The notes under the pieces: generated by a model
The model's database searches: none
Seen by the model: only the letters and a program-made list of their open reading frames with translations
What the model was told of the DNA's origin: nothing
Position numbers and translations under genes: made by a program
Shown: piece by piece, positions 11,187 through 41,271 of the stretch
How the letters are laid out: each line of letters opens with the position of its first letter
How positions within the stretch are numbered: the stretch's first letter is position 1
Source: Candidatus Falkowbacteria bacterium RIFOXYA2_FULL_38_12
GTDB lineage: Bacteria; Patescibacteriota; Patescibacteriia; XYB2-FULL-38-15
Assembly (NCBI GenBank): GCA_001778095.1
Contig: MFGA01000020.1
Span: 139,805 to 182,384 of the forward strand
Reading direction: 5' to 3'
Length of the DNA: 42,580 nt

Positions 11187-11711
11187 ATGTCTAAAAAATA
11201 TTTATTTGTTATTTGCACCGCATTGATATTTTCAACTTTTTTTAGTCTTTATGGGGCAAAAATAGCCAAAGCGTTGTCTGGAGTTTATATATACGCTAAC
11301 AATGGAGGTTATTACAGACAGTATGGGCCATTAGCTTATTGGTACACTAGAAATGGTGAGGGTTATTGTGGCCATTTGAGCAGTTGCAGTCCCGCCTATA
11401 TGAAATATACCTATACCGCAGGATGTATTGGATCAACAAATTCCGCGGTTTGGGACAATATCGATTCTCCTCAGTATGGGACTCATAAGATTTTTGTTCC
11501 TCGGGTCAACGCTACAACAAGGAGCGCGCCATACCTTATCACTTATAACGGCGCGTCATCTTACAGTCGTTCGCTAAATCAATATGCTTATTCCGACGCA
11601 TGGATTACTACAGCCAGACTTTTTGACATAAGAAATACGTGGTTGAGTGATAATACTTGCGAAGCAGGAAGATACCAAATCGGTTTTGATGAAATTCAAA
11701 TTTTGTACTAG
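11187..11711 (+). CDS. Secreted protein of unknown function
   Basis: Signal peptide (LFVICTALIFSTFFSLYGAKIAKA), four Cys in the mature region. Confidence 0.7.
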   Translation: MSKKYLFVICTALIFSTFFSLYGAKIAKALSGVYIYANNGGYYRQYGPLAYWYTRNGEGYCGHLSSCSPAYMKYTYTAGCIGSTNSAVWDNIDSPQYGTHKIFVPRVNATTRSAPYLITYNGASSYSRSLNQYAYSDAWITTARLFDIRNTWLSDNTCEAGRYQIGFDEIQILY

Positions 11712-11889: not shown

Positions 11890-12720
11890 ATGGGGGATAT
11901 GTTACAAGAAGAGCGAGGCGGAAATAACTGGTCCGGAAAAAAGAGTTTAGGGCTGGGAGTTTTTTTAATTGTGGGAATCGCGATTGTCGGTTTTGGTTTA
12001 TGGCAATTTAACTATCGGATTAAGGCTCCTTTTTTAGGCAAAGCAACCGGTTTAAAAAATTTCAAATCTCTTGATCAAAAAGAACTGGAGACAATGATTG
12101 AAAAACAAAAAAAAGATACTGATAGTGATGGTCTAACTGATTTTGATGAAGAATATGTTTATAAAACTAGCGCCTATCTTGATGATTCCGATTCCGACGG
12201 GTTCACCGATAAAATGGAAATTGATTCGGGAAATGATCCAAATTGTCCTTCGGGACAAAGTTGCGGAGTCGCTATCGCGGTCGGGGATGATGCGAAGACT
12301 TCTTCGGGAGAAATTGTTTTGCCGAGTGTGGATACTTTTTTGGATGGCAATGCCACGCCGGAAATGGTGAGAGAAGCCTTGAGACAATCGGGAGCGAGCG
12401 AAGAAATGCTTGCCTCGCTTGATGACGAAGCGTTGATGGCTGCTTACGCCGAAGTTGTAAAAGAAACCGGATCGGCGAGCGCGGTTCAAAATTTAAAAAC
12501 AGAAACAATAGACGAGACGGATGAAACTGTTCCGGCGGATACTGTCCCACCAAAAGATGAAGGCGCGGTTTCTTCGGAAATTGATTTAGCCAGTTTGACT
12601 CCGGCGCAAATCAGAGAATTGCTGTTGCAATCCGGAATGGATGAGGCGACCTTAAATAGCGTTGACGACGAGACCTTGCTTGATGTTTTAAAAGAAGCGA
12701 TGAAAGAAGTTAAGGAATAG
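11890..12720 (+). CDS. Membrane-anchored protein with TSP type-3-like Ca-binding repeats
   Basis: DTDSDGLTDFDEEYVYKT...DSDSDGFTDKMEIDSGNDP; TM near N-terminus; two PxxxREALRQSG/PAQIRELLLQSG helical repeats. Confidence 0.8.
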   Translation: MGDMLQEERGGNNWSGKKSLGLGVFLIVGIAIVGFGLWQFNYRIKAPFLGKATGLKNFKSLDQKELETMIEKQKKDTDSDGLTDFDEEYVYKTSAYLDDSDSDGFTDKMEIDSGNDPNCPSGQSCGVAIAVGDDAKTSSGEIVLPSVDTFLDGNATPEMVREALRQSGASEEMLASLDDEALMAAYAEVVKETGSASAVQNLKTETIDETDETVPADTVPPKDEGAVSSEIDLASLTPAQIRELLLQSGMDEATLNSVDDETLLDVLKEAMKEVKE

Positions 12721-12867: not shown

Positions 12868-15800
12868 GTGTTATTTAACTTCCCATCAAAATTAAAAAAA
12901 CACGCCCATATTCTGATTTTGGGTTTGTTTATTTTTACTCAAGTTTTTAGTGGGTTATTTTTATATGTAAAGTCGGCCGAGGCGCAGGGGTTGCCAACTA
13001 GCAATGCTATTCTAGATTCTGCGAGTGTTAAGGAGACCATAGATAGAGCTGCGGCAAAAAGATTGGAAGAGTTGCAAGGTTCGTGGTGGATGGGTCTTAT
13101 TTCTGCAGTGACCAACGCAGTTGGATATTTTGCCAACAAAATCGCTTACGACGCGGCCGTGGCTGTCGCCAGCTTGGGTTCGGGGCAAACTCCGGCTTTT
13201 TTTACTCAAGATTGGGGATCGTATCTTTCTGAAACAGGACTTAATTCTGCCGGAGAATTTATCGGGTCATTAGGCGAGGCTTATGGCGATGAGTTGGAGG
13301 GATCCGGTCTTGGAAATCTTTGTATGCCGCCGGATCCGCAATTTCGTTTGAATATTGGTTTAAGTCTTGCCGGATCAGTTGCTCCCAATGGACCGCAACC
13401 GCGTTGCGAATGGTCTAATATTGTTGATCAATGGGATACATTTATTACCGAAGCCAGCACTCCGGAAGTTTTGAGTCGTGTCAGTTTACAATTTAGCCCC
13501 GGAAGTGGCAGTGGTTTAGGAGCTTGGGTGCAAGCGCATGGTACAATGCAAGAAGGGATGCGGGACAGCGAGAAAAAGGCTACAAAGGAGAGAGAAGAAG
13601 GGCAAGGATTCAAATCAGTTGGAGAATTAATTACAAAGCGAATTAAAACACCTTCAGGTGTTATAAAAGATTCCATTACCAAACAAATTGATCCGAAAAG
13701 CGCGACTGAAGCAGATATAGAATCGGCTGGTAGCAAGTCTAGTTCAGCCGGCGCATTGATTGGATACAATGCTCTTGGTATGCTTGGCGGTATTGCTTCC
13801 AATTTTGTAAATACTCTTGCTTCAAAGTTGATGGATAGAGTAATGCACGGTTTGTCCTCTATAAAAGATATTGGCAAGCTTTTTCCCAAAGGAGGAAGCG
13901 GGCTGGATAACCCGGAATTTGCCGGTTTGGGTGGCAGGGCAGTGGCAGAGGCAACCTTTGCCGATTTTCTTGCGCCAAAGATTCAGGAGACAGGCAAATA
14001 CGATCCATTGGTTGAAATGATGACTTGCCCTTCGGGAGTCAATAAATCTCCGGAAAATTGTGTTTTGGATGGACAATTTGCTCAAGCTATCACTCAAGCG
14101 ACTATGGGAGATCCGATTACAGTCGCAGAAGCAATCAAAGACGGACTATTAAAAGGAACATGGCCATTAATTTCATCCGGTGATACTCGTCATAATGATC
14201 AATATTGTTTTCAAAAAGGCTATTGCTATAGCAATTTAGTTAAATTAAGAAAATATAGAATTATTCCAGTTGGTTGGGAGATGGCGGCAAATCTAGCCAC
14301 TGGAGATAGAACAGGGACAACTCTGGAAACAGTGGTAAAAGGTTTTAATACTTGTAATTCCAAAGGAATTGCCGATAATGATCACCCGTGGTGCCACCTC
14401 ATTGATCCGAATTGGGTTATAAAAGTTCCGGCTCATCAATGTAGGGCTAGAGTTTACGGGGCAATTTCAATAGAGGGTACAAGAGCCGAAACTTGTGTTG
14501 ATGCGCCGTCTTGTATTGCCGAAGATGGCGATGGAAATTGTGAAGGTGGCTGGGGTTATTGCACCAGAGAAAAAAATGTTTGGCGTTTACCCGGTGATCC
14601 TTGCGATTCTCAATTTGAATCTTGTCGAGCTCTCCGCACGAGAAGCGGAGAAGTAGAATCATATTTAATAAGTACGGTTGATTATGGTCCGCCTTGTTCG
14701 GCTGATGATGTTGGATGCAAGTGGTATTCAACTTATCAAGAGAAAGTTGGGGATGAATACAAATGGCAGGATAGGCCAAATGGCGCTGATCCGGAAGAAA
14801 AAACCGATAGAATCTATTTTAATAAAAATGTTGCCCAATGCAATGAAGAAGGATGTAGCGAGTTTTATAAAACAGACCAAGCGACGAATTTAAATTTAAT
14901 TGCCAATAGCAGTTTTGAGGAAGCGGAAAATATTGATGACGATGAAAAAGAAGCAAAATATTGGAGAGGAAGCAATGATAGATTTTCTTCTGTGGCTAAA
15001 GATGGAGGGAGTTCTTTGCAATTTGATGGAGGGGTGAGGACAATAACACAAGATGTTAGTGTGGGAAAACCTTTATCCGGGAGAAATTTTGTTTTATCTC
15101 TTTACGCAAGAAATTTTGAGGCGGGAGATTGCAACGGTACGGCAACAATTGGACCTCTGGGAGCGGGAGCCATATTCAAAAATGTGGCCATTGGAAGCAG
15201 TTCTTCTTGGAAAAGATACAAAACAGAAAGTCATTATTTCGCTAACAATCCAAGTGAAAATTTAAGAGTAATAATTACCGGCAATAATTGCTTAATTGAT
15301 GCGGTTCAACTTGAAGAAGCAAGTTCTGCTACCAATTATCATAGTGGCTGGGCCGGCTTGGGAGATGGGTTAAATCTCAAAAAAGCGCCGGAATATTATA
15401 ATTGTTATAACTATAATAATGACGGCACCGTAAAAACCAATGATGACGCTCCGCAATGTTCCGGCTTTATCGGCGCTTGTCAGGAAAACGAAGCCGGTTG
15501 CGAGATGTATTCTCCTCGCGATGGCGATCCGGCGATTCCCGGAATCACTAATTTTCCGAATGATTATTGTCCGCAGGAGTGCGTTGGTTATCAAACATTT
15601 AAACAATTAAAAACAAATTTTGAACAAGATAAATATCCGCTTTTCTTTATTCCAAAAACCGCAGAGAAGTGTTCGGCAAGTGAAGATGGTTGCGATGAGT
15701 TTACATCTTTAGAAACAGAGGCAGTAGAAAATTACAGTTCTTTGCGTCAATGTCAAAAACCCGGAGACGATTCAGCGGTATATTATACATGGGAAGGTTC

Positions 15801-18800
15801 GGATACAACCGGCTATCAGTTGAAGACTTGGAATTTAAAAGAAAGTGGAGAGCCGGCGGGGGTGAGTAACGCTGATCCGGAAAGCGGAATAGCGCCTTGT
15901 GTCAGTTTTGCTCCGGGAGTCGGTCCTGACGGCAGAAGAGCTTGCGCTCCATTACCCATATTGGCAGTTGGCACACCCGGAGTTTGCGTAAAAAATAATA
16001 CGATTGTCGGTTCAATAGATTATAATCCCGATTGTCGCGAATTTTATGATGCCCTGGGAAAAAGGCATTATCGTTTATATTCCAAAACAATAGTCTCTGC
16101 AGACGATTGTCATGAATACAGAAAGACATATTCAAACGAGGCTGATTGTTCTTCTTCGGGAGGGCTTTGGAATGTAGTAAATAACGATTGTAAATATGAT
16201 GTTTATCCGGCAGAATCAAAGAGGTGCAAATCGGTTGGTTGCCGAGCTTATCGGGGTAATGCCGGAGCTAATGTTAGAAATGTTTTTCAAAATAATTTTG
16301 AAACCGGAGCCGAAGAATGGACCGGTCCGGCAGCGCAAGTTTCACAAAGTTCGGAAGCGGTTGATAATGGTGGACATTCTTTAAAGATTGAAAGTCGTGC
16401 TGTGGCGGAAAAATCGGTCGCTGGTGGAATAAAAAAAGACGGTATTTATTTGATTTCTTTTTGGGCAAAGACAGAAGCCGCAAGAGGTCAAGCGAGTTTT
16501 CAGTTTAATGATGGGGCAATAGCGCCAGCTCTAAGACCGGTTCCGGCGATTTCCGAAGACCTATCTTTATCTTGGCAACAATACACAATCGGGCCGATTG
16601 AAATAACTTGGGAGCCGACCCCGGATAATTTAGCTACAGGTGACGTCGTGGAAGGGGATCGTCTCCAAGTAACGGCCAATAACGCGACAATTTATCTTGA
16701 CAATATTTTATTTAAAGAAGTCATAGACAGAATTTATTTAGTCAAAGATTCGTGGAATACTCCGGCGACTTGCGACCAGACTGCTTTTGGCGGATATCTA
16801 CCGCAAGCAATGCTCGGTTGCGAAGAATACAGAGACAGAGATAATCGCCAACATTTCTTAAAATCGTTCACCAGTCTTTGTCGCGAAGAAGCGATCGGGT
16901 GCCAGAAATTGGTTGATACAAAAAATAGCCAGTCGCCCTACGGAGAATTTTATAATGGGGTTTGTGTTATATCTGATGTAGCTGTTGATAGAGACAGAGA
17001 TGGAGACGTTGATGATCATGATATTTGTATTGATGCGGCAGGATGCGGTTGCAGTGTTAATGGAGCCAGAGTCTGCATCGTACCCCGCGGAGAAAATTCT
17101 TGCCGATACAATTCAGTCGGAATTATTCCGGCGCCGGCAAATAGAGTAGCTGATACGGTTGAGATTAAGGCCGATTCATACTCATTCTTAGTCGTGGACA
17201 AATCAAAAACTTGCAACCCCAGCAATATCGGTTGCGAGGCCTTTGGCGCGCCAAAATTGGATTCCATGGGGTCAATAATTTGTACTTTAGCGGCTAATTG
17301 CGGAGAAGAAGCTGGTTGTGAATGTAAACGCGACGGGGCAAAGATGTGTACAGTAGAAGACGGGAAGAGATCTTGCACCGGAGATTTTGACGCTGTTAAT
17401 TTCTTAAATAATCCTAAATTTTACGAAGGTCAAAGTAAGATTTTATGCGAAGCGTCTTATGATACTTGCGAAGAATATTTGGGAAGTGACGGAGCTAAAT
17501 TTTATTTCCGCGATCCGGGCAAACGCACTTGCGATTGGAAAGAAAGCGTTACCTATGGCGGAGAAAAACGTTCCGGATGGTTCAGGAAAGATGATAACGG
17601 AACAGATGTTCCTTGCTATCCCGATTATACTATGGCCGGAACCTTTGGCATTTGGAAAAACGCCGATCCCGACTACGAAGGGCGAGTCGGAAATTGTCCG
17701 GCGGATCAGAATCTTTGCACTAAATTTGTTGACCCAACAGCCACTTCCGGTGAAAATCCGGACGGCGAGCCATATTTCTATCTAAACAATGATAAATTGG
17801 AAAAACAAAAAGGAGAATGTAATGGTGAAGTTTCCTTGCAACAAGGATGTATTCTATTTGATGATACTTCCAATTTGAATAAGCTTTATAACGCCAACTC
17901 TACTTACTTGATAAGTGAAAAAGGATCGAGCAGCATTGAACCGGGCGGCAAAGTTGCTCCGGTTGATTGCACAAAGGGGGAGTGCAAAACATGCGGTCCT
18001 GAACAAATAGTTGGTCGTGCTCCTCCTGTATGCGACATAGATGATCCAAATGCTTATTGCAATACGGATCACTATTGTGTTTCTAATGGAGATTGCTCTT
18101 GGGACGATCCTTGGCCGTTGACATGTCAGTCGGATGAACACCTAAAAAACAACACCAACGTAATATTTAAAGTTAAAAAAGATCGTGTTTGCGGAGAATG
18201 GCTGGCTTGCAAGACAAGCACTACCACTTGGGATTCTTTCAGTAATAAAAAAAGAGAAATTTGCGATGGAATAGGTCTCTGTAATAAAGTTGCCGAAGGC
18301 AATCAGGCCGTTACTTGCGGTCAATGGATTGACGATTCTCCGGAAAATAAAACAGCGGAATTTTTAGATCTTGAAAAATACACCTCGCGCAACACCGGTT
18401 GGGAGGGTTCGGATTATTCCGGTTACTCTATTCCCAATCAATTTCCGGCCTATAAATTATCACAAGTTAATATTGCTGACGAAAAAACATCAAACGCCAT
18501 TAGCGCGGAAAGTGAGTGGAGATTAGGACTGATTGAAGAAAAGTATTGTTATGGGTTTCCTCCTCCTGCAGGTGATCCTCTTTCGAGGAATCCTGTTAGG
18601 AGTCGTCTTTGCGGTTTTCCCGGACGCGGACCGGTTAATGAAGAAAAGGGGACATGCTATGCCGAAAATGGTGTAAAATGTTCTACTAATCAAGTGGAAG
18701 AAGGTAAATCGATAATTCGCGAAGGAAAATGTTGGAATAAAAAATGTATTTACGACCCGGAAGGAAAACCAATAGACGGTTTCCCCAAATTTGCCGAATA

Positions 18801-21800
18801 TAAACCATTGGAAGCGGAAAGTGTTTATAGTCCAATGTGTCGAGCATATCCGGAAAAAAATTCTCCATTTCCTCGAGCAGTTGCCTATAATGAAGATGAT
18901 GAATCAGCTATAAAACAAGGTTTTGGCAATGCTCAAGTTTGCGAAGAACAATTTGTTTGTGAGGGGGGCGATACTTCCGGAGAATTTTGTTTTTCCGAAG
19001 AAGATGATTGTGGCGAAGAAGGAACTTGTAAAAAAATTGATAATCCTTGCGATTGTAGTTATACAAAGTTGACTTATCACGGGACAACAAAATATATTCA
19101 TAAAGATAATGATAAAATGCCGGAAAATATTTGCGTTGGCGGAAGTAAGGCCGGACAGTCATGCAAGCCTGAAGACTGTCCTTCAACCGAAGAAAGTCCG
19201 GAGAGTTGTGCTTGTGGTTCTTTTGGCAAATCCAATACCGGATCCTGCACCGGCAAAGATAAGGTGGAAACCGTTCTCGGCCTGGAAGGATATTGTCTGG
19301 AAAAAGATAAAACAACCTATATTAACGGCAGTCCGGAAGAAAATGCTTGTTTGACTTGGCTCCCGATTGACCATTTAAGCGGTTCGGTTGATGTTTACAA
19401 TCAATTTGTCAAGGCTGGTTACGCGCCGGGGGATAGTGGGCAGATGTGCATAGAAGCTGAATTATTCGTTAGGCCAACACCGATATGGGGTTGCGTTCAA
19501 GCTACGGGTGTAAACGGGTATAGAAGTGATGGTGCTTGCGAATATGAAACTATCTATGATGGTTCTGGGGCTTATGATGTAGATGATGTGTATTGTCAAT
19601 GGGAAAATAGTAGAAATGCAGGAGAGGGAGGTTGCATCTCCGGGAATATTACTCCCGCAACTTGTACAAGTTGCCCAACAGGGTGGACATATATTGAAAC
19701 AGGATGCTCTCCGACTAATGATGAGAACTACTGTGGCGCAAATGGATTTGGTCTTGACCAATGTATCTATTATTGTATTCCCCCAGGGCCATTACTAAAT
19801 AATTTAGGAGACGATGACCCAAATACAGAAGAAAAACCGATTATTCCAGGCGAAGCTTCAGTTTGTTTTCCTGATTTTATCACTGAGGCTGATAGGAGAA
19901 GCGAAAGGAGAGGCGGTTATTTTGAAGTAAAAAATGAAGCCAATACTTTTGAAATTGGAACAAGCGGAAATTCTCGCAAGTCCCCCGCTCTTTATTGTGA
20001 AGCTGATTATTACATGAAATATTCAGATTATCGTGAAATAATTGAAGGAACTGACGGTATACTCATTCGCTACAAAGGCACTGGTTATGGTAGGGAGAGT
20101 TGGCATAATCTTAAAAAAGTTGCGCCAACATTTGTTCCTGTTTGTAATAGGCTTGTTGAGGCTTCAGAAAGTAAAAATAGTTCAAAGGCTTGGACCGATC
20201 GTTTGTATAAAGATTCTAAAAAAGAATCTTGTGATGATATAAATGACGACGGTGAGGGAACTTGTATAAAGGGAACTTTAAGATCAGGGCTTCCTTGTAG
20301 TCAAAACTCAGATTGCGAAAAAATACGATCAAATGTTCTTAGAAGCGGAGATTTTCCTTCGCTTGAGTATACTTACGATAGTTCGTTGTCTCCATTCGGT
20401 TATAGACATAAAGACTTAAATAAACCGGCTGGAATTCCTTTTTGTTCGGATGAAGAGATTGGTAAAATGGAATTACCATCAGCTGATAACTTAGGATGTA
20501 GCCCGGGGATGAGTCTTTATGGAGAAAGGGACGGTCATTCAGCTTCAGCAAGACCATACTTAAATTTTTCTTATCAAATAAGGAGAAGTTGTGACGATGA
20601 CGCTGATTGTAGTTCAGAAGTAATTAGATGCGATATGGAGTGTAGACAAAAATGTGGAGAGGGTTTACCAGTATGTCCGCCCGAGACTGAGTGTTCCCCA
20701 GAAGATCATGAGTCTATTCCAACAATGGGAGATCTTATGACTCGTGCAGAAAAAGCTCTGTGTCCGGACGTAGTGGATGATAAAATAAGGTATTGTGTTC
20801 CTGTGGATGATTCAGAACCAGTTATTGGTAGAGGTTTGTTAAGGTTTGGAACATCGGGGGATCCCACGTGTACATCGGAGTGTGAAAGAGCTGAAAATGA
20901 TGGTATAGCTGTTGGTACTTGTAGCAATGTAGAGCGTAATTGTTTAAGAAAAGAAGATTGTTATACTTCTTTGTGCGCTTGGGAGGGTCGTCGTTCGGAT
21001 GATCCTATTGTGCAGAGGTGGCAAGATAATACTCGGCGGGAGTGGGATGAGTGGTCTGGCGGAGAGGGAGGATTTTGTAATGGTCTTGACGCAGAGGTTG
21101 ATGATCTTCCGGATGATGAAGGGGGAAAATATGATTTGGGAAAAACAAGAATCGCCGAGCTTTTTGCCAAAACCTTTAAAATATATGAATGGGAACCTAA
21201 AAATACAGCGATAGAGAGAGAAACTGATATAGATAATACAGATTTCGGGGCATATGTATTAATTGATTCAGAAATTGGCATACCACTTGAAGAGGACACT
21301 TTTTCCACCTGGGACATCACCGAATCCGGCGACCCGATCACTCGCGAAGCTCCAACCCCACCTCATGTCGCCCCCATCAAACTCCCTTGCATTAACAATA
21401 AATGTTCTCCAATGCAGGAGGTAGGAGAATATGTCTCCGGCTTTACCGTCAACGACAAAAACTCCGGCACTATTATTTCCCGTTCCGGCGAACTGGCCGC
21501 CAGTATTAAATTCTTTGCCTGGGCCGACAAAAACCAAATGCCTATAAAGAAAGTCTGCGTTGACTTTGGAAATGGTGATGATTCCCCGGATTGCGATGGA
21601 GGCTCTCCAATTAATTTCTACAAAAATCATTGGGGATATGATAGCTCCGGAGCTTCCGCCTGCGATGGATCGGATTTTGGCCATGCCAAACAAGCCTGCA
21701 CTGAAGAGCCATTTAGCTATAACGTAGTCTATACTTGCCCAAGCGATGCGGAAGATAGTATGGATCCTTGCCCCGAAGGAGATCCAACAGCAACAAATTG

Positions 21801-22017
21801 CTATACACCAAGTTGTGATTCTATCACCGGCGGTTGTTGCATCTTCCGTCCCAAGGTTCACGTTTTGGATAATTGGGGGTGGTGCACAGGGGAATGTGAT
21901 GGAAGATCGCAGGGGGGGTGCTATGGGACGGGGGGGATTGCTGGGGAATGTGATATAAATCAAAATTATCCTCATTGGACTACTTCAGGGGTAAAAGTGA
22001 TTGTAGCGCCGAGATAG
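12868..22017 (+). CDS. Giant secreted Cys-rich protein (3049 aa) with carbohydrate-binding-like jelly-roll segments and repeated Cys modules
   Basis: GTG start, signal-like hydrophobic segment ending KSAEAQG; CBM-like regions ~14889-15345 (NLIANSSFEEA...IDAVQLEEA) and ~16270-16720 (NVFQNNFETGAEEW...IYLDNILFKEV); at least ten C-x(n)-C-xx-[FYL] repeats. Confidence 0.85.
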   Translation: MLFNFPSKLKKHAHILILGLFIFTQVFSGLFLYVKSAEAQGLPTSNAILDSASVKETIDRAAAKRLEELQGSWWMGLISAVTNAVGYFANKIAYDAAVAVASLGSGQTPAFFTQDWGSYLSETGLNSAGEFIGSLGEAYGDELEGSGLGNLCMPPDPQFRLNIGLSLAGSVAPNGPQPRCEWSNIVDQWDTFITEASTPEVLSRVSLQFSPGSGSGLGAWVQAHGTMQEGMRDSEKKATKEREEGQGFKSVGELITKRIKTPSGVIKDSITKQIDPKSATEADIESAGSKSSSAGALIGYNALGMLGGIASNFVNTLASKLMDRVMHGLSSIKDIGKLFPKGGSGLDNPEFAGLGGRAVAEATFADFLAPKIQETGKYDPLVEMMTCPSGVNKSPENCVLDGQFAQAITQATMGDPITVAEAIKDGLLKGTWPLISSGDTRHNDQYCFQKGYCYSNLVKLRKYRIIPVGWEMAANLATGDRTGTTLETVVKGFNTCNSKGIADNDHPWCHLIDPNWVIKVPAHQCRARVYGAISIEGTRAETCVDAPSCIAEDGDGNCEGGWGYCTREKNVWRLPGDPCDSQFESCRALRTRSGEVESYLISTVDYGPPCSADDVGCKWYSTYQEKVGDEYKWQDRPNGADPEEKTDRIYFNKNVAQCNEEGCSEFYKTDQATNLNLIANSSFEEAENIDDDEKEAKYWRGSNDRFSSVAKDGGSSLQFDGGVRTITQDVSVGKPLSGRNFVLSLYARNFEAGDCNGTATIGPLGAGAIFKNVAIGSSSSWKRYKTESHYFANNPSENLRVIITGNNCLIDAVQLEEASSATNYHSGWAGLGDGLNLKKAPEYYNCYNYNNDGTVKTNDDAPQCSGFIGACQENEAGCEMYSPRDGDPAIPGITNFPNDYCPQECVGYQTFKQLKTNFEQDKYPLFFIPKTAEKCSASEDGCDEFTSLETEAVENYSSLRQCQKPGDDSAVYYTWEGSDTTGYQLKTWNLKESGEPAGVSNADPESGIAPCVSFAPGVGPDGRRACAPLPILAVGTPGVCVKNNTIVGSIDYNPDCREFYDALGKRHYRLYSKTIVSADDCHEYRKTYSNEADCSSSGGLWNVVNNDCKYDVYPAESKRCKSVGCRAYRGNAGANVRNVFQNNFETGAEEWTGPAAQVSQSSEAVDNGGHSLKIESRAVAEKSVAGGIKKDGIYLISFWAKTEAARGQASFQFNDGAIAPALRPVPAISEDLSLSWQQYTIGPIEITWEPTPDNLATGDVVEGDRLQVTANNATIYLDNILFKEVIDRIYLVKDSWNTPATCDQTAFGGYLPQAMLGCEEYRDRDNRQHFLKSFTSLCREEAIGCQKLVDTKNSQSPYGEFYNGVCVISDVAVDRDRDGDVDDHDICIDAAGCGCSVNGARVCIVPRGENSCRYNSVGIIPAPANRVADTVEIKADSYSFLVVDKSKTCNPSNIGCEAFGAPKLDSMGSIICTLAANCGEEAGCECKRDGAKMCTVEDGKRSCTGDFDAVNFLNNPKFYEGQSKILCEASYDTCEEYLGSDGAKFYFRDPGKRTCDWKESVTYGGEKRSGWFRKDDNGTDVPCYPDYTMAGTFGIWKNADPDYEGRVGNCPADQNLCTKFVDPTATSGENPDGEPYFYLNNDKLEKQKGECNGEVSLQQGCILFDDTSNLNKLYNANSTYLISEKGSSSIEPGGKVAPVDCTKGECKTCGPEQIVGRAPPVCDIDDPNAYCNTDHYCVSNGDCSWDDPWPLTCQSDEHLKNNTNVIFKVKKDRVCGEWLACKTSTTTWDSFSNKKREICDGIGLCNKVAEGNQAVTCGQWIDDSPENKTAEFLDLEKYTSRNTGWEGSDYSGYSIPNQFPAYKLSQVNIADEKTSNAISAESEWRLGLIEEKYCYGFPPPAGDPLSRNPVRSRLCGFPGRGPVNEEKGTCYAENGVKCSTNQVEEGKSIIREGKCWNKKCIYDPEGKPIDGFPKFAEYKPLEAESVYSPMCRAYPEKNSPFPRAVAYNEDDESAIKQGFGNAQVCEEQFVCEGGDTSGEFCFSEEDDCGEEGTCKKIDNPCDCSYTKLTYHGTTKYIHKDNDKMPENICVGGSKAGQSCKPEDCPSTEESPESCACGSFGKSNTGSCTGKDKVETVLGLEGYCLEKDKTTYINGSPEENACLTWLPIDHLSGSVDVYNQFVKAGYAPGDSGQMCIEAELFVRPTPIWGCVQATGVNGYRSDGACEYETIYDGSGAYDVDDVYCQWENSRNAGEGGCISGNITPATCTSCPTGWTYIETGCSPTNDENYCGANGFGLDQCIYYCIPPGPLLNNLGDDDPNTEEKPIIPGEASVCFPDFITEADRRSERRGGYFEVKNEANTFEIGTSGNSRKSPALYCEADYYMKYSDYREIIEGTDGILIRYKGTGYGRESWHNLKKVAPTFVPVCNRLVEASESKNSSKAWTDRLYKDSKKESCDDINDDGEGTCIKGTLRSGLPCSQNSDCEKIRSNVLRSGDFPSLEYTYDSSLSPFGYRHKDLNKPAGIPFCSDEEIGKMELPSADNLGCSPGMSLYGERDGHSASARPYLNFSYQIRRSCDDDADCSSEVIRCDMECRQKCGEGLPVCPPETECSPEDHESIPTMGDLMTRAEKALCPDVVDDKIRYCVPVDDSEPVIGRGLLRFGTSGDPTCTSECERAENDGIAVGTCSNVERNCLRKEDCYTSLCAWEGRRSDDPIVQRWQDNTRREWDEWSGGEGGFCNGLDAEVDDLPDDEGGKYDLGKTRIAELFAKTFKIYEWEPKNTAIERETDIDNTDFGAYVLIDSEIGIPLEEDTFSTWDITESGDPITREAPTPPHVAPIKLPCINNKCSPMQEVGEYVSGFTVNDKNSGTIISRSGELAASIKFFAWADKNQMPIKKVCVDFGNGDDSPDCDGGSPINFYKNHWGYDSSGASACDGSDFGHAKQACTEEPFSYNVVYTCPSDAEDSMDPCPEGDPTATNCYTPSCDSITGGCCIFRPKVHVLDNWGWCTGECDGRSQGGCYGTGGIAGECDINQNYPHWTTSGVKVIVAPR

Positions 22018-22051
22018 TTAAAAGTGAAAAGTGAAAAGTTGCAGTTAAAAA
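22017..22051. repeat. Right arm of inverted repeat flanking the giant gene
   Basis: GTTAAAAGTGAAAAGTGAAAAGTTGCAGTTAAAAA, reverse complement of 12819-12853 with few mismatches. Confidence 0.7.
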
Positions 22052-22071
22052 TTTAAAGTTGAAAGCACGCT

Positions 22072-22102
22072 GTCATTGCGAGCGAGAGCGAAGCAATCCC
22101 AT
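22072..22102. repeat. Truncated copy of palindromic repeat family B (GTCATTGCGAG)
   Basis: gtcattgcgagcgagagcgaagcaatcccatgg. Confidence 0.6.
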
Positions 22103-22123
22103 GGAATAAGGGTTAAAGAATAA

Positions 22124-22164
22124 AATAAAAAAAGAGTTCCTTAAAACAAGGACTCTTTTTTTTA
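22124..22164 (+). terminator. Rho-independent terminator
   Basis: aaaaaaagagttcctt aaaac aaggactctttttttt. Confidence 0.8.
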
Positions 22165-22301
22165 AAGCAAGGGTAAAATTTCTATTAAGTAGAAGTTTAG
22201 CCTCTGCTTTCTTTTTTGTGTTTTTTATCTCCGCCGTAGCTTCTTGCCTTGCCGTAGCCTTAGCGAAAACGGATATGCTTTTCATTTCTCTAAAAAGATT
22301 G

Positions 22302-22345
22302 GCCGGTGCGAGATGTACATTGCCCAAGTGTACAATCTCGCACCG
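22302..22345 (-). terminator. Strong hairpin at 3' end of the minus-strand lipoprotein gene
   Basis: ccggtgcgagatgtaca ttgcccaag tgtacaatctcgcaccgg. Confidence 0.7.
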
Positions 22346-22364
22346 GCTTCGGGGGCGGGGTCGT

Positions 22365-23057
22365 TTATGGCCATACGATTCGCCATTCCCCTGAATCTCC
22401 CCGAGGGCTATCCCACGTCCCCTCGAGAACCGAGGAGGAGACGCGGGTTCCGGTCAAGGTGGTGTCTCGATCAACCAAGACCATTAAACCCTCGTGGGTG
22501 ATGCTTCCATATACGGAAGCTCCCCCGATTTCCCCCGTCAAATCCGTGCCTTCCTGGAGAATGAAGGCGACCGGATATTCCCCCTCTGTCCCCAAGAATT
22601 CATTGTGCAACCAGAGGGTTCCCTCTTCACCCTCCACCAAAGGGTAGAGCACGAAGGGAGTGGCGGGGGAGGAACAGTCCTCGGTCACGATGAGCGTGTC
22701 CGGGGACTCGTCGTAGTCGTTCAGGTCGAACGACAAGACGACTTCCTGCCCTCGGGGGAGAGGCAGGGTGGCGGGAGTGAACGATCCAGAAGGGATTCCA
22801 TTCACCATGACCTCCGCGTTTTGAGGCACGGAGTCGATGAGGATGCTTGGGCAAAGCTCCTCATCGCCATCGTTGTCCGCGTCGGCGTCGCCGTCACCAT
22901 CGGGAGGGCAAGGTCGCCCCCCCGCGAAGTCGGCTCCGCCGCCGACTTCGATGCAGTCCGCATCGGCGTCGGGTTGGATGCCGTCGTCGCATGCTGCGAC
23001 TACGGCCAGTGAAATAACCAGCGCCGTCAGAAGGACGGACTTCAGTTTTTTTTCCAT
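22365..23057 (-). CDS. GC-rich putative lipoprotein with Asp/Gly/Ala-rich linker and PEGA-like domain
   Basis: Minus strand; MEKKLKSVLLTALVISLAVVAACDDG lipobox; SD ggaggaggg upstream of ATG at 23057; PDGDGDADADNDGDEELC linker; SILIDSVPQNAEVMVNGIPSGSFTPATLPL PEGA-like. Confidence 0.75.
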   Translation of the reverse strand: MEKKLKSVLLTALVISLAVVAACDDGIQPDADADCIEVGGGADFAGGRPCPPDGDGDADADNDGDEELCPSILIDSVPQNAEVMVNGIPSGSFTPATLPLPRGQEVVLSFDLNDYDESPDTLIVTEDCSSPATPFVLYPLVEGEEGTLWLHNEFLGTEGEYPVAFILQEGTDLTGEIGGASVYGSITHEGLMVLVDRDTTLTGTRVSSSVLEGTWDSPRGDSGEWRIVWP

Positions 23058-23096
23058 CTTTCCCTCCTCCCCGTTGGGGGGGTTGTTGAAAATTAC

Positions 23097-23154
23097 CAAG
23101 TAGCAGTTTTTAACTGTGTATTTTTTCCTTAATACAAGGCTAAAAACTGCTACT
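23097..23154. repeat. Hairpin with ~15-bp perfect arms upstream of the lipoprotein gene
   Basis: aagtagcagttttta ... taaaaactgctactt. Confidence 0.75.
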
Positions 23155-23321
23155 TTGCAAATAGACAAAGGAGGTTTTTGAGATGTTTTTCGGTTTTTGT
23201 TTCAAACCTATTTTTCAAAGAATATTTTGTGTCTTTTGACACACCAAAATTGCAGATGCGGTATCTGTCCCTCTTAGCATCTACATTATTTTAACCTACA
23301 CCTTTTTTGAGGTTTTGTCAA

Positions 23322-29530: not shown

Positions 29531-32431
29531 ATGATTATTTTTTCACGCTTGAAAAATTTTATTTATAAAATTTCAAGCGGAGTTTCGAAGAAAATAGGAG
29601 GCAAAAAGAAAATTTTTGCGATGGTTTTGAGCCTTATTTTAATAGGGTTAATTTTTGTTATTCCGCAGATAATATTTGCGCAAGATGGAGCAACTCCCGC
29701 AACGCCGCCACCAGCTGGTGTAAGTGGAGGCGGAGGTGGGGTCAGTGGAGGTGGGGTCGGAGGTGCAGCCGGTGGCGGTGGAGCTGGTGGTAGCACCGGC
29801 CTAGAAGGGGTAGTCGCTGATTTTTTAATTGCTATTTTTCGTATTTTTCTTTATGTAGGTGGTAACCTTTTGCTTTTTATGACAAAAGCTTTGATAGCTT
29901 TTTGCTCTTATAATGATTTTGCTAACTCCACAGCCGTTATTAGTGGGTGGGTAATTGTTCGTGATTTGGTTAATATGTTTTTTGTCGTTGTTCTTTTAGT
30001 GATTGCTATTGCTACAATTTTGAAAATAGAGTCTTACAGCTATAAAAAAATGTTGGGAAGATTAGTTCTAATGGCAGTGCTGGTCAATTTCAGTAAAACA
30101 ATATCTCTTCTTTTTATAGATTTTGCCCAAGTGGTGATGATGACTTTTGTTAATGGTTTTCAGGCCGCGGGTGGAGGCAATTTTGTTACCGCTTTGGGAT
30201 TAACGGAGATTTTGGCAGTTAGAAACACCGCAACTGCTGCAGAATTGAGTAGTTTTACTACCGCAGGGGCGTATCTTTTGGGTCTAATTATGATTATAAT
30301 CTCTACTGTGGTAGTGGGGATGATGCTGGTTATCCTCGTAATGAGAATGATTGTGCTATGGATTTTGATAGTTCTCTCTCCCTTAGCTTTTTTTCTTTCT
30401 ATTATTCCGCAAGCAAAAAAATACGCCGATCAATGGTGGAGTATGTTTACCGAATATGTCCTTGTCGGACCAATTTTGGCTTTTTTCCTTTGGCTGTCCC
30501 TTGTTTCAGTGACATCTTTAAGCGAAACCGATAAGCCTAGATTTGAGGAAGATACGCCAGAGACTCAACAAGATGTTGGTATTTCAGCGATTGGTTCGCA
30601 GGACAATTTAATTTCTTTTGCTATTGCTATAGGAATGCTCGTCGGCGGATTAACGATGACCGGAAAAATGGGGGTTATCGGCGCGGGGATTGGGGTGGGG
30701 GTTTTGGCCGGGGCGAAGAGGATGGGAATGGGGGCGGCGAGATCTGCAGGTAAGGTGGGAAAATGGGGTGGAAAGAAGGCTTTCAACTATGCGGGGAGAA
30801 AATATAACGAGAGAGGGTTACCAAATCCTGTGGCATTTTTTCGCGCCTGGGGACAGAGAAGCGAGGAAAAAAACAAGCAGGCCAAGGAAGATGCTACGGC
30901 AAGATCAAGGGGTTATGTTGATTACCTAGCTAGTAAAAAATTTTTAGGAATAGGGGGGACTGGCGTTAGATTACCTCATGAAGACATGATTAAGAGAAAG
31001 AGAGAAGCAGAACACACCAAAGAATGGTCGCATATGCAGGAAAAGCAAAAAGCAAAGATACTTGAACAACTATGGGGCAAGACTGATCACGAGTCGGTTG
31101 ATATGAGAAGATCTTTGATGACGGCTATGGCCGCCGAAGGGCATTTGGATGATGCCTTAGAGACAGATTTTTTCAGAAAAGAGCTCGACGTTGATAAAAT
31201 CGATAAAAAAGCTATTGATAAATTGTTAAAAGCTGGTTGCGGAACAGATCAACAAGGTTTACGAGCAATTTATGATATTGGCGAGCTTGGTAAAAAAATT
31301 GGACATTTTGAATATGTTGGTGCATCAGATATAGACTCTGACGGAAAATGGAAGGAAAACGATGAGAATTCTTCAAAAACAAGGGCTTGGGCTGAAATTT
31401 CTAAGGTTAAGTCTAGAGATCAATTATCTGTAGCCCCTCATAATTTTGGCGTTAAAAGTTGGGATGAGTCTGCAAATGGAGGCAAAGGTGATTGGCAATG
31501 GAGCATGGACACCGAAGATGAGGAAAGTTTTGAAAACATGAATTGGGATAATAGATTTGTTACAAAAGAAAGTCAAGAAATTATTAGATATTCTCAAGAT
31601 AGGGCAACTAATTTGGTCGGATACAATATGGTTTCGGGAGAATTTGATGTCAATGAGGGAAATAAAGAAGGAATTAAAAAAAGATGGGAAACGGGAAGAG
31701 TGGCAGTAGAGGCATTGGAAGAAAAAGCTGGTAAAAAGGGAGTTAATTATAATGGGAAGCATTTTGATAGTTTTAGAATTTTTATGCATGATCCTAATGG
31801 AGCGAATCTTCCGAAGACAGATGAGGAAATTAAAGAGGAAGAAGAAGAGAGGAAGGCAAAGGAAAAGAAAGAAAGGGCTGAAGCGACGGAAAAAAGGAAG
31901 GCAGAGCGAGAAGAAGCGTCTCAAAAAGAGGAGCGAGTAGGAAAGATAGACGTGGTCGTTAGTAGCGGTGGCGGAGCGAGAACGTCTGAGGACAAAGAAG
32001 AGATGAATAACATAAGGATGGAAATTGAAAAAAGGAAAGAAACAAAGGGACGTAGGGAGCAAGTAGATAAAAGATTAGATGAAAATATCAAACGAAAAAA
32101 AAAGATATCTTCATCGGAGCGATATAATGAGTTGTACGAAAAGGTGATTATTAAAGGAGAAGAGCTTAATGAAGAAGAACAACAACAAATGGATGCTTTT
32201 GATAGAGAAGATGAAGAAATATTGAAAGAATCAATAGCGTTACATAAAGAAAGAGATGAATTAATGGATAGTAACGAAATAAATGACGCGATTAAAGGTC
32301 TTGAAAAAAATTTAAAAATGACTATGGAAGGGAAGGATAAGACACTAAAAGACAGGCAAAGGAAAGAAGTAATGGTAGCAAAGCTTCAAGGAAGTATAAA
32401 AAAACTTCAAGAGAGATTGAAGAAAAAATAA
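29531..32431 (+). CDS. VirB6/TrbL-like polytopic T4SS membrane protein with long charged C-terminus
   Basis: Signal segment, Gly-rich linker, multiple TM helices (VVADFLIAIFRIFLYVGGNLLLFMTKALIAF; IVRDLVNMFFVVVLLVIAIATIL); position next to PrgI/VirB4 genes. Confidence 0.75.
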   Translation: MIIFSRLKNFIYKISSGVSKKIGGKKKIFAMVLSLILIGLIFVIPQIIFAQDGATPATPPPAGVSGGGGGVSGGGVGGAAGGGGAGGSTGLEGVVADFLIAIFRIFLYVGGNLLLFMTKALIAFCSYNDFANSTAVISGWVIVRDLVNMFFVVVLLVIAIATILKIESYSYKKMLGRLVLMAVLVNFSKTISLLFIDFAQVVMMTFVNGFQAAGGGNFVTALGLTEILAVRNTATAAELSSFTTAGAYLLGLIMIIISTVVVGMMLVILVMRMIVLWILIVLSPLAFFLSIIPQAKKYADQWWSMFTEYVLVGPILAFFLWLSLVSVTSLSETDKPRFEEDTPETQQDVGISAIGSQDNLISFAIAIGMLVGGLTMTGKMGVIGAGIGVGVLAGAKRMGMGAARSAGKVGKWGGKKAFNYAGRKYNERGLPNPVAFFRAWGQRSEEKNKQAKEDATARSRGYVDYLASKKFLGIGGTGVRLPHEDMIKRKREAEHTKEWSHMQEKQKAKILEQLWGKTDHESVDMRRSLMTAMAAEGHLDDALETDFFRKELDVDKIDKKAIDKLLKAGCGTDQQGLRAIYDIGELGKKIGHFEYVGASDIDSDGKWKENDENSSKTRAWAEISKVKSRDQLSVAPHNFGVKSWDESANGGKGDWQWSMDTEDEESFENMNWDNRFVTKESQEIIRYSQDRATNLVGYNMVSGEFDVNEGNKEGIKKRWETGRVAVEALEEKAGKKGVNYNGKHFDSFRIFMHDPNGANLPKTDEEIKEEEEERKAKEKKERAEATEKRKAEREEASQKEERVGKIDVVVSSGGGARTSEDKEEMNNIRMEIEKRKETKGRREQVDKRLDENIKRKKKISSSERYNELYEKVIIKGEELNEEEQQQMDAFDREDEEILKESIALHKERDELMDSNEINDAIKGLEKNLKMTMEGKDKTLKDRQRKEVMVAKLQGSIKKLQERLKKK

Positions 32432-37178: not shown

Positions 37179-37610
37179 ATGCAACAATTCGTTATCCCTC
37201 AATTTATTGACGTAGAAGATAAAATTATCGGTCCGATCACAACTCGGCAGTTTGTTATTCTTCTTTCTGCAGCGATAGTTTTATTTATTCTTTACAAACT
37301 GGCTACATTCACATTTTTTTTAATTTTTGGTTTTCCAACTTTTGCGATAGGGGTAGTTTTAGCTTTTATCAAAATTAATGGTCAACCTTTTCATTTTTTT
37401 CTTTTAAATTTATTACAGACAAGTCGCCGACCAAATCTTAGAGTGTGGAATAAAGAATTAACAAGCGATGAATTGATGGGAAATTTAAAAAAAGAAGAAA
37501 TAAAGGCAGTTATAAAAAGACCGATAAAAGATGTTCTGGAAGAAACCAAACTTTCAGAATTGTCTTTAATAGTGAACACAGGCGGAGCTTATAGAGGAGA
37601 AGATAATTGA
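37179..37610 (+). CDS. PrgI family protein
   Basis: QFVIPQFIDVEDKIIGPITTRQFVILLSAAIVLFILYKL; typical PrgI N-terminus, upstream of VirB4. Confidence 0.85.
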   Translation: MQQFVIPQFIDVEDKIIGPITTRQFVILLSAAIVLFILYKLATFTFFLIFGFPTFAIGVVLAFIKINGQPFHFFLLNLLQTSRRPNLRVWNKELTSDELMGNLKKEEIKAVIKRPIKDVLEETKLSELSLIVNTGGAYRGEDN

Positions 37611-37826: not shown

Positions 37827-38507
37827 ATGCAGAGCAAGAAACTTGCCGGAAAAAAAGTCGGAGTATCCACAAGAGAACGTTTGGATATAGCGGAAATCCG
37901 CGAAGATTGTGTTGTCTTGAAAGACGGGACAATGCGAGCGGTAATGCTTATCTCAAGCATTAATTTTGCGTTAAAATCCGAGGAAGAGCAAAACGCGATC
38001 ATTGCGGCTTACGTTTCTTTTTTAAACGCGATAGAATTTCCTTTGCAAATTGTTATCCAGTCAAGAAAACTTAATATTGACGCCTACTTGGAAAGATTAA
38101 GAAAAGCGGAAAAAGAGCAGGGAAACGATTTATTGAGAATTCAAATTGCCGACTATCGCGAATATGTGAAAGAACTTGTGGAGATGGGGGATATCATGAG
38201 CAAGCGTTTTTATATCACGGTTCCCTATGATCCGCTTTCCGACAAACGAAAAGGATTTTGGTCAAGATTAAACGAGGTTATTCGTCCGGGATCTGCCATT
38301 AAATTGGGCGCGGAAAGATTTAGAAAAAGGAAAAAAGATCTTTTTGCTCGAGTTGAGCATGTGCAGATGTTGTTGTCGGGTATGGGGCTTACTTCGGTTG
38401 TTTTGGATACGCAAAGTCTAATAGAACTTTATTATAATCTCTATAATCCTGAACTGGCAGAAACGGAAAAAATGGTTGATATGGGAAAACTAAGGGTTGG
38501 AGAATAA
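37827..38507 (+). CDS. VirB4/TraC N-terminal-domain protein (split VirB4)
   Basis: LDIAEIREDCVVLKDGTMRAVMLISSINFALKSEEEQNAII...; TraC-type N-domain directly upstream of the VirB4 ATPase. Confidence 0.75.
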   Translation: MQSKKLAGKKVGVSTRERLDIAEIREDCVVLKDGTMRAVMLISSINFALKSEEEQNAIIAAYVSFLNAIEFPLQIVIQSRKLNIDAYLERLRKAEKEQGNDLLRIQIADYREYVKELVEMGDIMSKRFYITVPYDPLSDKRKGFWSRLNEVIRPGSAIKLGAERFRKRKKDLFARVEHVQMLLSGMGLTSVVLDTQSLIELYYNLYNPELAETEKMVDMGKLRVGE

Positions 38508-38617: not shown

Positions 38618-40534
38618 ATGGCTTTTACACCAAGCGCGGTCTATAAAAAAGAAAAAGTAGCGACTGAGATAAGCAATATTTCTCCGGAAGAACAGAAGCG
38701 TCTCGCAGAAGAGGAAAAAATACTGCTTGAAGAGGAGCGGATTTATCGTCGTGGTTCTGTCTCGGTGCAAGATTTGATTTCACCAGCTTCAATGAAAATT
38801 GAGCCGTCTTATGTTCTCCTGGGTGATAAGTATGTCCGGACGATTTTTGTTGTCACTTATCCGCGTTATATTACTGTCGGTTGGTTTACGCCGATTGTGA
38901 ATTTGAATACGGCTTTGGACATCGGAATGTTTTTTTATCCGGTTAAAGCAGAAATAATTTTAAAGCAACTTAAAAAGAAAGCCGGAGCTATTGAGGCGCA
39001 AATTTTGGGAGACGCGGAAAAAGGCGCTCCTCGCGATCCGCTTCGCGAAACGGCTCTTCGCGACATTGAACAGCTTCGCGATGACTTGACTCAAGGCATT
39101 GAACATTTTTTTCAATACGCTCTTTATGTGACAATTTATGCCAAAAGTAAAGAAGAACTGGATAAAACGTCTGAAGAGATAGAATCGATTTTTGGCTCAA
39201 AACTAATTTATACCAAAAGAGTTTTTTATCAGGCGGAGCAAGGTTTTAATTCCACATTACCCCTTTGCAATGATGAATTGATGATTACTTTTAACATGAA
39301 CTCTTCGCCGATTGCCTCGTCTTTTCCATTTATGTCGGCGGAGCTAAGTTCGGATAATGGAATTTTATATGGCATAAATCGCCATAATAACAGTTTAATT
39401 TTGTTTGATCGTTTTTCTCTGCAAAACGCTAATGCCGTTGTTTTTGCGACCTCCGGCGCTGGGAAAAGTTATGCTATTAAGCTCGAAGTTCTGCGTTCGT
39501 TGATGCTTGGCGTTGATGTTTTAGTTATTGATCCGGAAATGGAATATAAGCATTTGTCGGATGCGGTGGGTGGAGCTTATATTAATATTTCTTTAGCGTC
39601 TGATTCTAAAATAAATCCATTTGATTTGCCGCGTCCGGTAGGGGATGATACGAGCGCGGAAGATATTATCAGGAGTGCAGTTATTACCTTAAAGGGATTG
39701 TTGCGCCTGATGCTTGCTCGTCCAGGTGAGGGAGGAAAACTTATTTTTTCTCCGGAAGAAGATTCTTTGCTTGATAGAGCGCTAATTGAAACATATGCCA
39801 GAAAAGATATTACGCCGGACACCAACTTAAAATCGGGAATTGAGCCTCCGATCATGAGAGATTTGCAAAATATATTAGAAGGAATGACCGGGGCGGAAAG
39901 CTTGGTGGAAAGATTAAAAAAATATACTGAAGGAACATTTTCCGGACTTCTAAATTCGCCGACTACGGTTGATGTAAGAAATCCTTTGGTTATTTTTAGC
40001 GTCAGAGATCTTGAAGACGAACTTCGTCCGATTGCCATCTATAATATTATAAATTTTATTTGGGCGGTTGTTAGATCGGAAAGAAAAAGGAGAATCTTGG
40101 TGGTTGACGAGGCGTGGTGGCTTATGCAACATGAAGATAGCGCCAAATTTATTTTTGCTTTAGCTAAAAGATGTCGTAAATATTATTTGGGATTGACAAC
40201 GATCACACAAGACGTCAATGATTTTCTTACTTCTCCTTATGGTCAGGCGATCGTTACCAACTCTTCCATTCAGATTCTTCTGAAACAATCATCAGCGTCG
40301 ATTGACTTGATTCAAAAAACATTTATGTTGACGCAAGGTGAAAAATATTTGCTCTTAGAGTGCGGAGTCGGCGAAGGAATCTTCTTTGCCGGAGCGAAAC
40401 ACGCGGCTATAAAAATCGTCGCGTCATATTCCGAAGATCAATTAATAACTTCCGATCCTAAACAACTCTTGGAAATTGAAGCAGCCAAAAAAGAATTTGA
40501 CGAAGAACTCGCCATGGAGAATGAGCCGGCTTGA
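38618..40534 (+). CDS. virB4: VirB4-like T4SS ATPase
   Basis: Walker A VFATSGAGKSYAIKLE; VLVIDPEMEYKHLSDAVGG; Walker B RRILVVDEAWWLM. Confidence 0.9.
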   Translation: MAFTPSAVYKKEKVATEISNISPEEQKRLAEEEKILLEEERIYRRGSVSVQDLISPASMKIEPSYVLLGDKYVRTIFVVTYPRYITVGWFTPIVNLNTALDIGMFFYPVKAEIILKQLKKKAGAIEAQILGDAEKGAPRDPLRETALRDIEQLRDDLTQGIEHFFQYALYVTIYAKSKEELDKTSEEIESIFGSKLIYTKRVFYQAEQGFNSTLPLCNDELMITFNMNSSPIASSFPFMSAELSSDNGILYGINRHNNSLILFDRFSLQNANAVVFATSGAGKSYAIKLEVLRSLMLGVDVLVIDPEMEYKHLSDAVGGAYINISLASDSKINPFDLPRPVGDDTSAEDIIRSAVITLKGLLRLMLARPGEGGKLIFSPEEDSLLDRALIETYARKDITPDTNLKSGIEPPIMRDLQNILEGMTGAESLVERLKKYTEGTFSGLLNSPTTVDVRNPLVIFSVRDLEDELRPIAIYNIINFIWAVVRSERKRRILVVDEAWWLMQHEDSAKFIFALAKRCRKYYLGLTTITQDVNDFLTSPYGQAIVTNSSIQILLKQSSASIDLIQKTFMLTQGEKYLLLECGVGEGIFFAGAKHAAIKIVASYSEDQLITSDPKQLLEIEAAKKEFDEELAMENEPA

Positions 40535-40683: not shown

Positions 40684-41271
40684 ATGTATTTTTCCCGCAG
40701 AACAAAAATAGTTATTGCTATCGTAATCATTCTTTTACTTGCCTTTTTACTTTATTGGTTTTTGTGGCGAGGAAAATCGGTTAACGATGAAGAGGTTCAG
40801 AGTCCGCCTCCGCCGATTGCCATTGTTCCTCAAAATAAACCGGCGGGAAGTGTTCCGCCAGAGCCGGTCAAAGGAGAAGAAAAGACAAAAGCAGATCTTG
40901 GTCGCTTGGCGGCAGCTTTTGCGGAAAGATTTGGGAGCTACTCCAATCAAGGTGAGTATGCTAATGTCTTGGATTTAAAACCGATAATGACTGGCACGAT
41001 GCAAAAATGGGTGGATGATTATGTCGCGGAAAGCAAAGCGGCGATTACTGATGTTTCGGTTTATTCGGGAATTACGACCAAGGCAGTCTCGTCAAAGATC
41101 ACTGCCATAAATGAAAAAGGCGGGACAGCAACGGTCGTTGTCAACACACAGCGCGAAGGAGCTGGAGAAAAAACAGCAGAAAATAAAGAAATTTATTATC
41201 AAAATTTAGAACTGGAATTTCAGAAAATAAGCGACGAATGGAAAGTGAACAAGGCGAATTGGTTGGAGTAA
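40684..41271 (+). CDS. Single-TM protein with C-terminal NTF2-like (VirB8-like?) domain
   Basis: IVIAIVIILLLAFLLYWFLW anchor; Pro-rich linker; C-terminal ...ENKEIYYQNLELEFQKISDEWKVNKANW. Confidence 0.55.
   Translation: MYFSRRTKIVIAIVIILLLAFLLYWFLWRGKSVNDEEVQSPPPPIAIVPQNKPAGSVPPEPVKGEEKTKADLGRLAAAFAERFGSYSNQGEYANVLDLKPIMTGTMQKWVDDYVAESKAAITDVSVYSGITTKAVSSKITAINEKGGTATVVVNTQREGAGEKTAENKEIYYQNLELEFQKISDEWKVNKANWLE

Follow-up and report, generated by a model that had tools for sequence, protein, structure and literature searches.

A giant cysteine-rich secreted protein linked to the type IV secretion locus in one class of Patescibacteria

How do Patescibacteria grip and use host cells? A 42,580-nt stretch of contig MFGA01000020.1 from Candidatus Falkowbacteria bacterium RIFOXYA2_FULL_38_12 (positions 139,805 to 182,384 of the forward strand; hereafter, the window) poses the question in concrete form: what does a single secreted protein of 3,049 amino acids do in the locus of a type IV secretion system (T4SS)? 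A first-pass annotation, made from the letters of the window, had described this protein as a cysteine-rich giant with a recurring C-x(n)-[GTL]-C-xx-[FYL] module, encoded in one locus with VirB6, PrgI and VirB4, and had taken it for a disulfide-rich surface fibre or adhesin tied to the secretion machine. Here we describe the giant as what appears, from its sequence and those of its relatives, to be a surface protein linked to the T4SS, from a family not described before, and as a strong candidate for the arm by which the T4SS touches the host cell.

According to the main text of PMC12102498, the patescibacterial T4SS is MPF-FATA-like, with VirB4, TrsD (described there), PrgI and VirB6, and a T4SS is cited there as indispensable to the epibiotic growth of one cultured species, Ca. 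S. epibionticum; the genome survey that it reports found no PrgB-like adhesin in the T4SS of Patescibacteria. The same main text makes no mention of a giant, of large cysteine-rich proteins or of an N-domain protein (defined below) upstream of VirB6. In the open literature, as distinct from subscription papers and preprints, we found no description of the giant family.

A nearly class-wide family of secreted giants

The gene of the giant is a single uninterrupted frame with a GTG start and no internal stop (Table 1), and the 152 cysteines of its product bear out the earlier description. By hydropathy, its only transmembrane (TM)-like segment is one hydrophobic stretch at the N terminus, which ends at a typical A-x-A site, and neither the window protein nor its orthologs have a C-terminal TM segment.

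A contig search with the single protein as query returned no relatives, and one with an alignment returned 308, whose titles name Uhrbacteria, Falkowbacteria and Komeilibacteria. We take these host lineages to be the GTDB class ABY1 of Patescibacteria. At these loci, comF is found near the T4SS, in line with the ABY1 pattern. The class name is supported because comF beside the T4SS is reported for ABY1 in the main text of PMC12102498.

Of 95 class genomes searched, which span 59 families, 90 contain an ortholog, typically as one open reading frame (ORF) of 2.4–3.9 thousand amino acids and mostly in single copy, a spread that the first-pass annotation had overlooked. Among the 60 orthologs with both ends closed, the medians are 3,095 amino acids and 134 cysteines, and 57 of the giant's 152 cysteines are at least 90% conserved among 74 orthologs. 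Across 381 genomes of the phylum, the profile of the cysteine and jelly-roll part (A1) is strong in the class only; matches outside it are weak and all lie within jelly rolls. A frame of 26,141 amino acids in genome G002, from the same family as the window, was rejected as a gene, being a masked (N) stretch.

Family and structure databases recognize little of this protein. Searched whole against Pfam and NCBIfam it gave nothing useful (Mep72, at 0.004, overlaps jelly roll 2 alone), its single sequence had no match in the PDB, and its modules, N terminus and C terminus are all without a Pfam family.

Such a family might instead serve ABY1 cells as a general scaffold of the envelope, or as something like an S-layer: a tough disulfide coat without specific host contact, encoded near the T4SS only through old operon organization. 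This is the main rival explanation. It draws on the nearly class-wide and mostly single-copy occurrence of the giant and on its very conserved cysteine scaffold, and PKD and jelly-roll domains are found in structural surface proteins too. We nevertheless consider it rather unlikely, in view of the N-terminal domain, the gene order and the jelly-roll variation described below.

An N-terminal domain shared with short proteins of T4SS loci

The piece that would tie the giant to the secretion system, likewise overlooked earlier, is its helical N-terminal domain (N-domain). The profile of this domain matches every giant in the class sample and, outside the class, five genomes, in frames of 316–544 amino acids. 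In T4SS loci read from 20 genomes of other classes, its homologs are short secreted proteins (280–540 amino acids) encoded at or directly upstream of VirB6 (L139, L140, L142, L143, L154 and L155, with one other gene in between in L139 and L143), and the typical order is thrombospondin type-3 (TSP3) protein, N-domain protein, VirB6, PrgI, TrsD and VirB4. Profile–profile comparison aligns the N-domain of the giants with these short proteins at 98.9% in hhalign (E = 2.7e-17), and the outside family also reaches loci L141 and L150. Because the N-domain stands alone upstream of VirB6 elsewhere, the giant is most simply read as a standard protein of T4SS loci that bears a huge extension specific to the class, and the position upstream of VirB6 may be that of a T4SS contact subunit across the phylum. 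The standalone occurrence of the N-domain beside VirB6 in other classes also argues against a general scaffold.

Co-occurrence with the VirB4 locus was examined. The giant and VirB4 share a contig in 39 genomes, and in 38 of these VirB4 lies 8–25 kb downstream of the giant on the same strand, a linkage in one orientation that again argues against a scaffold. In four other loci, 3, 8, 10 and 30 bp separate the end of the giant from VirB6, and a homolog of the TSP3 protein is encoded upstream of the giant in 48 of 56 loci, mostly at ≤50 bp. In the window, the earlier placing of the giant in one locus with VirB6, PrgI and VirB4 holds, the last two by family matches (Table 1). The labels VirB6 and TrsD (the VirB4 N-terminal paralog) are based on gene order, topology and cross-class homologs; for VirB6, neither TrbL in Pfam nor a PDB profile search gave support. 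VirB4 itself is present in 365 of the 381 genomes of the phylum. Together, conserved synteny and the shared N-domain make the tie of the giant to the T4SS well supported.

Being encoded within a T4SS locus, being very large and having a conserved C terminus would also suit a T4SS substrate, an effector or toxin of giant size that the machine passes into host cells. This we regard as very improbable. The giant has a Sec-type signal peptide, its cysteine-rich fold fits an oxidizing exterior, and it is conserved as one unit class-wide, with a C-terminal domain that is conserved rather than hypervariable; in Pfam and NCBIfam no toxin- or effector-type domain was found.

Two further observations concern the N-domain and its position. 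The only matches of its profile in the PDB, weak ones to helices of coronavirus nsp8 (E ≥ 0.004), were judged chance helical matches and rejected as relatives. In locus L146 of another class (rc 429-6308), a secreted protein of 1,959 amino acids with 27 cysteines lies upstream of VirB6; no N-domain was detected in it, and it may be an independent large extension.

Cysteine modules, jelly rolls and a C-terminal domain

Beyond the N-domain, the giant is largely modular. We count 11 instances of C-x(3-12)-[GTL]-C-x-x-[FYLM] in the protein, compared with a shuffle mean of 1.47 (maximum 7 in 2,000 shuffles); when cysteine positions are held fixed, the shuffle mean is 2.37 and the maximum 13. All ten motifs quoted in the first-pass annotation were located, in modules starting at residues 610, 658, 871, 935, 1120, 1338, 1449, 1527, 1610 and 1651 (window 14695–17859). 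When profiled over 74 orthologs, the modules match each other, whereas control segments do not: an hhalign probability of >50% is reached by 17 of 55 module pairs and by 1 of 121 controls. In an AlphaFold2 model of residues 500–1380 (mean pLDDT 80, pTM 0.63, 58 sequences), the modules share the order cysteine, short helix, GC, beta strand, as judged by secondary-structure comparison rather than 3D superposition. The module is thus recurrent, as had been proposed, and the earlier remark that it belongs to no described repeat family also stood: the C-x-GC hairpin module, like the N-domain, has no Pfam entry, Pfam gave no match to known cysteine-repeat families (EGF, TSP1 and similar), and Cys block C (alignment A7) has no homolog in the PDB. 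Cry toxins, reelin and Elapor1, returned by Foldseek for the model of the cysteine and jelly-roll part, were rejected as relatives; their TM-scores are low and the matches are probably driven by the jelly rolls.

Two jelly rolls are embedded between the cysteine blocks. The first-pass annotation had seen both as jelly-roll or carbohydrate-binding module (CBM)-like segments and had missed that, by profile and fold, they belong to the CBM_4_9 type. Matches to CBM_4_9 (PF02018) were obtained for 15 of 20 jelly-roll members (best 6e-17), the window's own copy alone having no Pfam match. The jelly-roll profiles match CBM22, CBM4 and CBM16 structures in the PDB (1gui, 3e-6), which belong to xylanase, laminarinase and endoglucanase modules, and Foldseek aligns the jelly rolls with CBM16 and CBM61 at TM-scores of ~0.7. 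Orthologs carry 2–4 jelly rolls, mostly two, with three or four in ten of them; jelly roll 1 is absent from L050 (one aligned member). Their mean pairwise identities of 28 and 34% are below the 43% of the flanking cysteine blocks. The jelly rolls behave as plug-ins, and the varying number of these CBM-type modules is a further point against a general scaffold.

The last 230 residues form a domain that is conserved among orthologs, with the motifs DWGDG and V.DNWGWC. It looks like a PKD domain; because Pfam and PDB profiles are silent on it, this assignment is a reading of the motifs by eye.

CBM_4_9 domains usually go with glycoside hydrolases, and a separate amidase-like secreted protein is encoded nearby (26677–27705), which together raise the alternative of a secreted hydrolase or glycan-processing factor, a VirB1-like helper whose CBMs would target the host wall and whose catalytic site would lie in an unrecognized part. 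We think this improbable, given that no enzyme family was found for any part of the giant in Pfam, NCBIfam or the PDB and that its invariant residues are mostly cysteine, glycine, proline and aromatics, not acid/base pairs.

Disulfide-forming enzymes

The search for disulfide-forming enzymes found DsbA-like thioredoxins (PF13462) in 57 of 57 class genomes. In 14 genomes a copy lies <10 kb from VirB4, where copy number and genome size would lead one to expect ~3.7 (P ~3e-5); this is a rough estimate, based on a manual count of copies and a single assumed genome size. VKOR was rejected as a universal oxidant, being present in 23 of 57 genomes only and absent from the genome that carries the window. 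The signal peptide, the 57 near-invariant cysteines and the DsbA-like oxidases make it well supported, by inference, that the giant is disulfide-rich and surface-exposed.

A proposed arm between the T4SS and the host

On balance we lean towards reading the giant as the version, in ABY1, of a subunit that the T4SS locus encodes and Sec exports; its N-domain would dock at VirB6, VirB3 and VirB4 and its arm would contact host glycans. Sec would export the protein, and the N-domain would stay with the T4SS at the cell surface, docked on the outward side of the VirB6/VirB3/VirB4 complex. In ABY1 the N-domain is followed by ~2,500 more residues, read here as a chain of beta hairpins in which a C...GC pair pins every module, with CBM_4_9 jelly rolls plugged into this chain and the PKD-like domain at its end. 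Disulfides formed by DsbA-like enzymes would stiffen the chain, and the oxidized hairpins would keep both jelly rolls and C-terminal domain extended toward the partner cell. There, contact with host glycans or envelope polymers would fall to the variable jelly rolls and to the distal region of the arm, and this contact would bring the VirB channel to the host and hold the T4SS against the host cell. We infer each of these steps, from T4SS docking and disulfide pairing to ligand binding and host attachment. As for the earlier description of a disulfide-rich surface fibre or adhesin tied to a T4SS, the tie gained support from synteny and the N-domain, and the disulfide-rich, surface-exposed character from the features above; an attachment fibre is plausible from the CBM-type jelly rolls and the PKD-like C terminus. 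The family is of interest to the question of host grip in being near-universal in its class, large, probably exposed and modular.

Several observations weigh against this picture. First, some lineages have the giant and VirB4 separated by tens to hundreds of kilobases or placed on different large contigs (for example G057, G063, G023, G092, G043, G016 and G086); in G057 the distance is 529 kb, and lineages such as G023, G063 and G092 are among those with the two genes on different, large contigs. Such unlinked lineages are also what a general scaffold would lead one to expect. Second, VirB6 is within reach downstream in only 17 of the 38 loci with >4 kb of sequence, and in the window it starts 7.5 kb after the giant, behind inserted unrelated small genes. 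Third, the proteins upstream of VirB6 in L144, L145 and L153 have no detectable similarity to the N-domain. Fourth, the AlphaFold2 model of the N-domain is helical with only moderate confidence (pLDDT 67) and has no fold match in the PDB. Fifth, no anchor motif or C-terminal TM segment in the giant explains its retention at the surface. Finally, five genomes lack the giant and six lack VirB4 in the assembly; genomes with only one of the two genes are probably due to gaps in metagenome-assembled genomes.

The locus resembles the known patescibacterial T4SS in its gene order, VirB6-PrgI-TrsD-VirB4, with comF nearby. With the PrgB-type adhesins of Gram-positive T4SSs, the giant shares large size, secretion to the surface, a link to a monoderm-type T4SS and a role in which it would hold cells together; it differs from them in having no sequence similarity and no Pfam or NCBIfam match, in being cysteine-rich with CBM modules and in lacking LPXTG. 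Its jelly rolls are of the same type as the CBM_4_9 (PF02018), CBM16 and CBM22 structures, but are embedded here between disulfide hairpin modules, without a recognized enzyme domain. VirB5-type minor pilins are likewise secreted helical proteins encoded beside VirB6 in a T4SS locus; unlike the giant, they have no giant extension, and no sequence or fold match to them was found for the N-domain (none to VirB5/TrbJ in Pfam, and no PDB fold match for its model, which is only of moderate confidence). In Rickettsiales, giant extensions on VirB6 are comparable as extensions of a T4SS component, but those proteins are polytopic, whereas the VirB6 of this locus has a gene of its own and the giant lacks any TM segment other than the signal peptide.

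Table 1. The giant, its parts and the neighbouring T4SS-locus genes in the window
Feature	Position in window	Strand	Evidence
Giant cysteine-rich secreted protein	12868..22017	+	ORF; orthologs in 90/95 class genomes; 57 Cys at least 90% conserved
Predicted signal peptide, hydrophobic h-region, AEA|QG-type site	12868..12987	+	Hydropathy of the window protein and of almost every full-length ortholog
Helical N-domain (T4SS-locus domain), residues 42-300	12991..13767	+	Profile A2/A3; standalone homologs upstream of VirB6 elsewhere
Cys block A, residues 440-675, modules 610 and 658	14185..14892	+	Mean pairwise identity 43%; alignment A1
Jelly roll 1, residues 676-838, CBM_4_9 type	14893..15381	+	Profile matches CBM16 chains, e.g. 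2zey; Foldseek TMt ~0.7
Cys block B, residues 839-1139, modules 871, 935 and 1120	15382..16284	+	Identity 43%; AlphaFold2 mostly high confidence
Jelly roll 2, residues 1140-1296, CBM_4_9/CBM22 type	16285..16755	+	4xup 8.8e-9, profile A4
Cys block C, residues 1297-1820, modules 1338, 1449, 1527, 1610, 1651 and degenerate 1775	16756..18327	+	Alignment A7
Variable region, residues 2201-2750	19468..21117	+	Occupancy and conservation low among orthologs
Conserved C-terminal PKD-like domain	21325..22014	+	Alignment A6; x-DWGDG ... H.Y.C ... V.DNWGWC ... I.V.P
TSP3 (Ca-binding) repeat protein gene	11890..12720	+	NCBIfam MtsD-like 6e-6; directly upstream of giant
VirB6-like polytopic membrane protein	29531..32431	+	8-9 TM segments; conserved across classes
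PrgI/VirB3	37179..37610	+	PF12666, 6e-10
TrsD-like, VirB4 N-terminal paralog	37827..38507	+	Position; homologs adjoin VirB4 in most cross-class loci
VirB4 ATPase	38618..40534	+	TraG P-loop PF19044, 3e-28
Single-TM protein, possibly VirB8-like	40684..41271	+	Topology and conserved position

Other genes of the locus

Upstream of the TSP3 gene, positions 11187–11711 encode a small secreted protein that matches Golvesin_C weakly. The block between the giant and VirB6 (22018–29530) holds a matrixin-like secreted protease (23813–24307), an MntA/HepT toxin–antitoxin pair (25253–25880) and a secreted Amidase_6 protein (26677–27705). Between VirB6 and PrgI, the proteins encoded at 32494–33924 and 35409–37157 have ≤1 cysteine each and are probably cytoplasmic; they have no Pfam family, and homologs occur at the same place in other classes of Patescibacteria. 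In locus L157 (rc 16005-18626), similarity to TrsD and to VirB4 falls in one frame of 873 amino acids, a probable TrsD–VirB4 fusion.

A second cysteine-rich giant

The same genome encodes a second giant of 3,192 amino acids, also with 152 cysteines, ~23 kb upstream of the first on the contig that they share (C20:119884-129462; L168:4885-14463). It has a signal peptide and a T4SS_pilin-like head with two TM segments, followed, as read by eye, by TIG-like segments, DUF4215-like cysteine-rich repeats and a VWA-like C-terminal region with a MIDAS motif; it has no detectable similarity to the first giant. We suggest, tentatively and with some doubt, that the ABY1 T4SS sets host choice through two such proteins, the disulfide-pinned, sugar-reading arm borne by a subunit encoded beside VirB6 and the pilin-headed VWA-type giant, rather than through type IV pili alone. 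The second family, of ~3.2 thousand amino acids, is also found in L163, L164 and L167. Partial matches to it, often to the pilin head alone, occur in 57 of 57 class genomes, and PF18895 pilin domains in all 38 of the class genomes tested (38/38), where some head proteins of 2–3.3 thousand amino acids.

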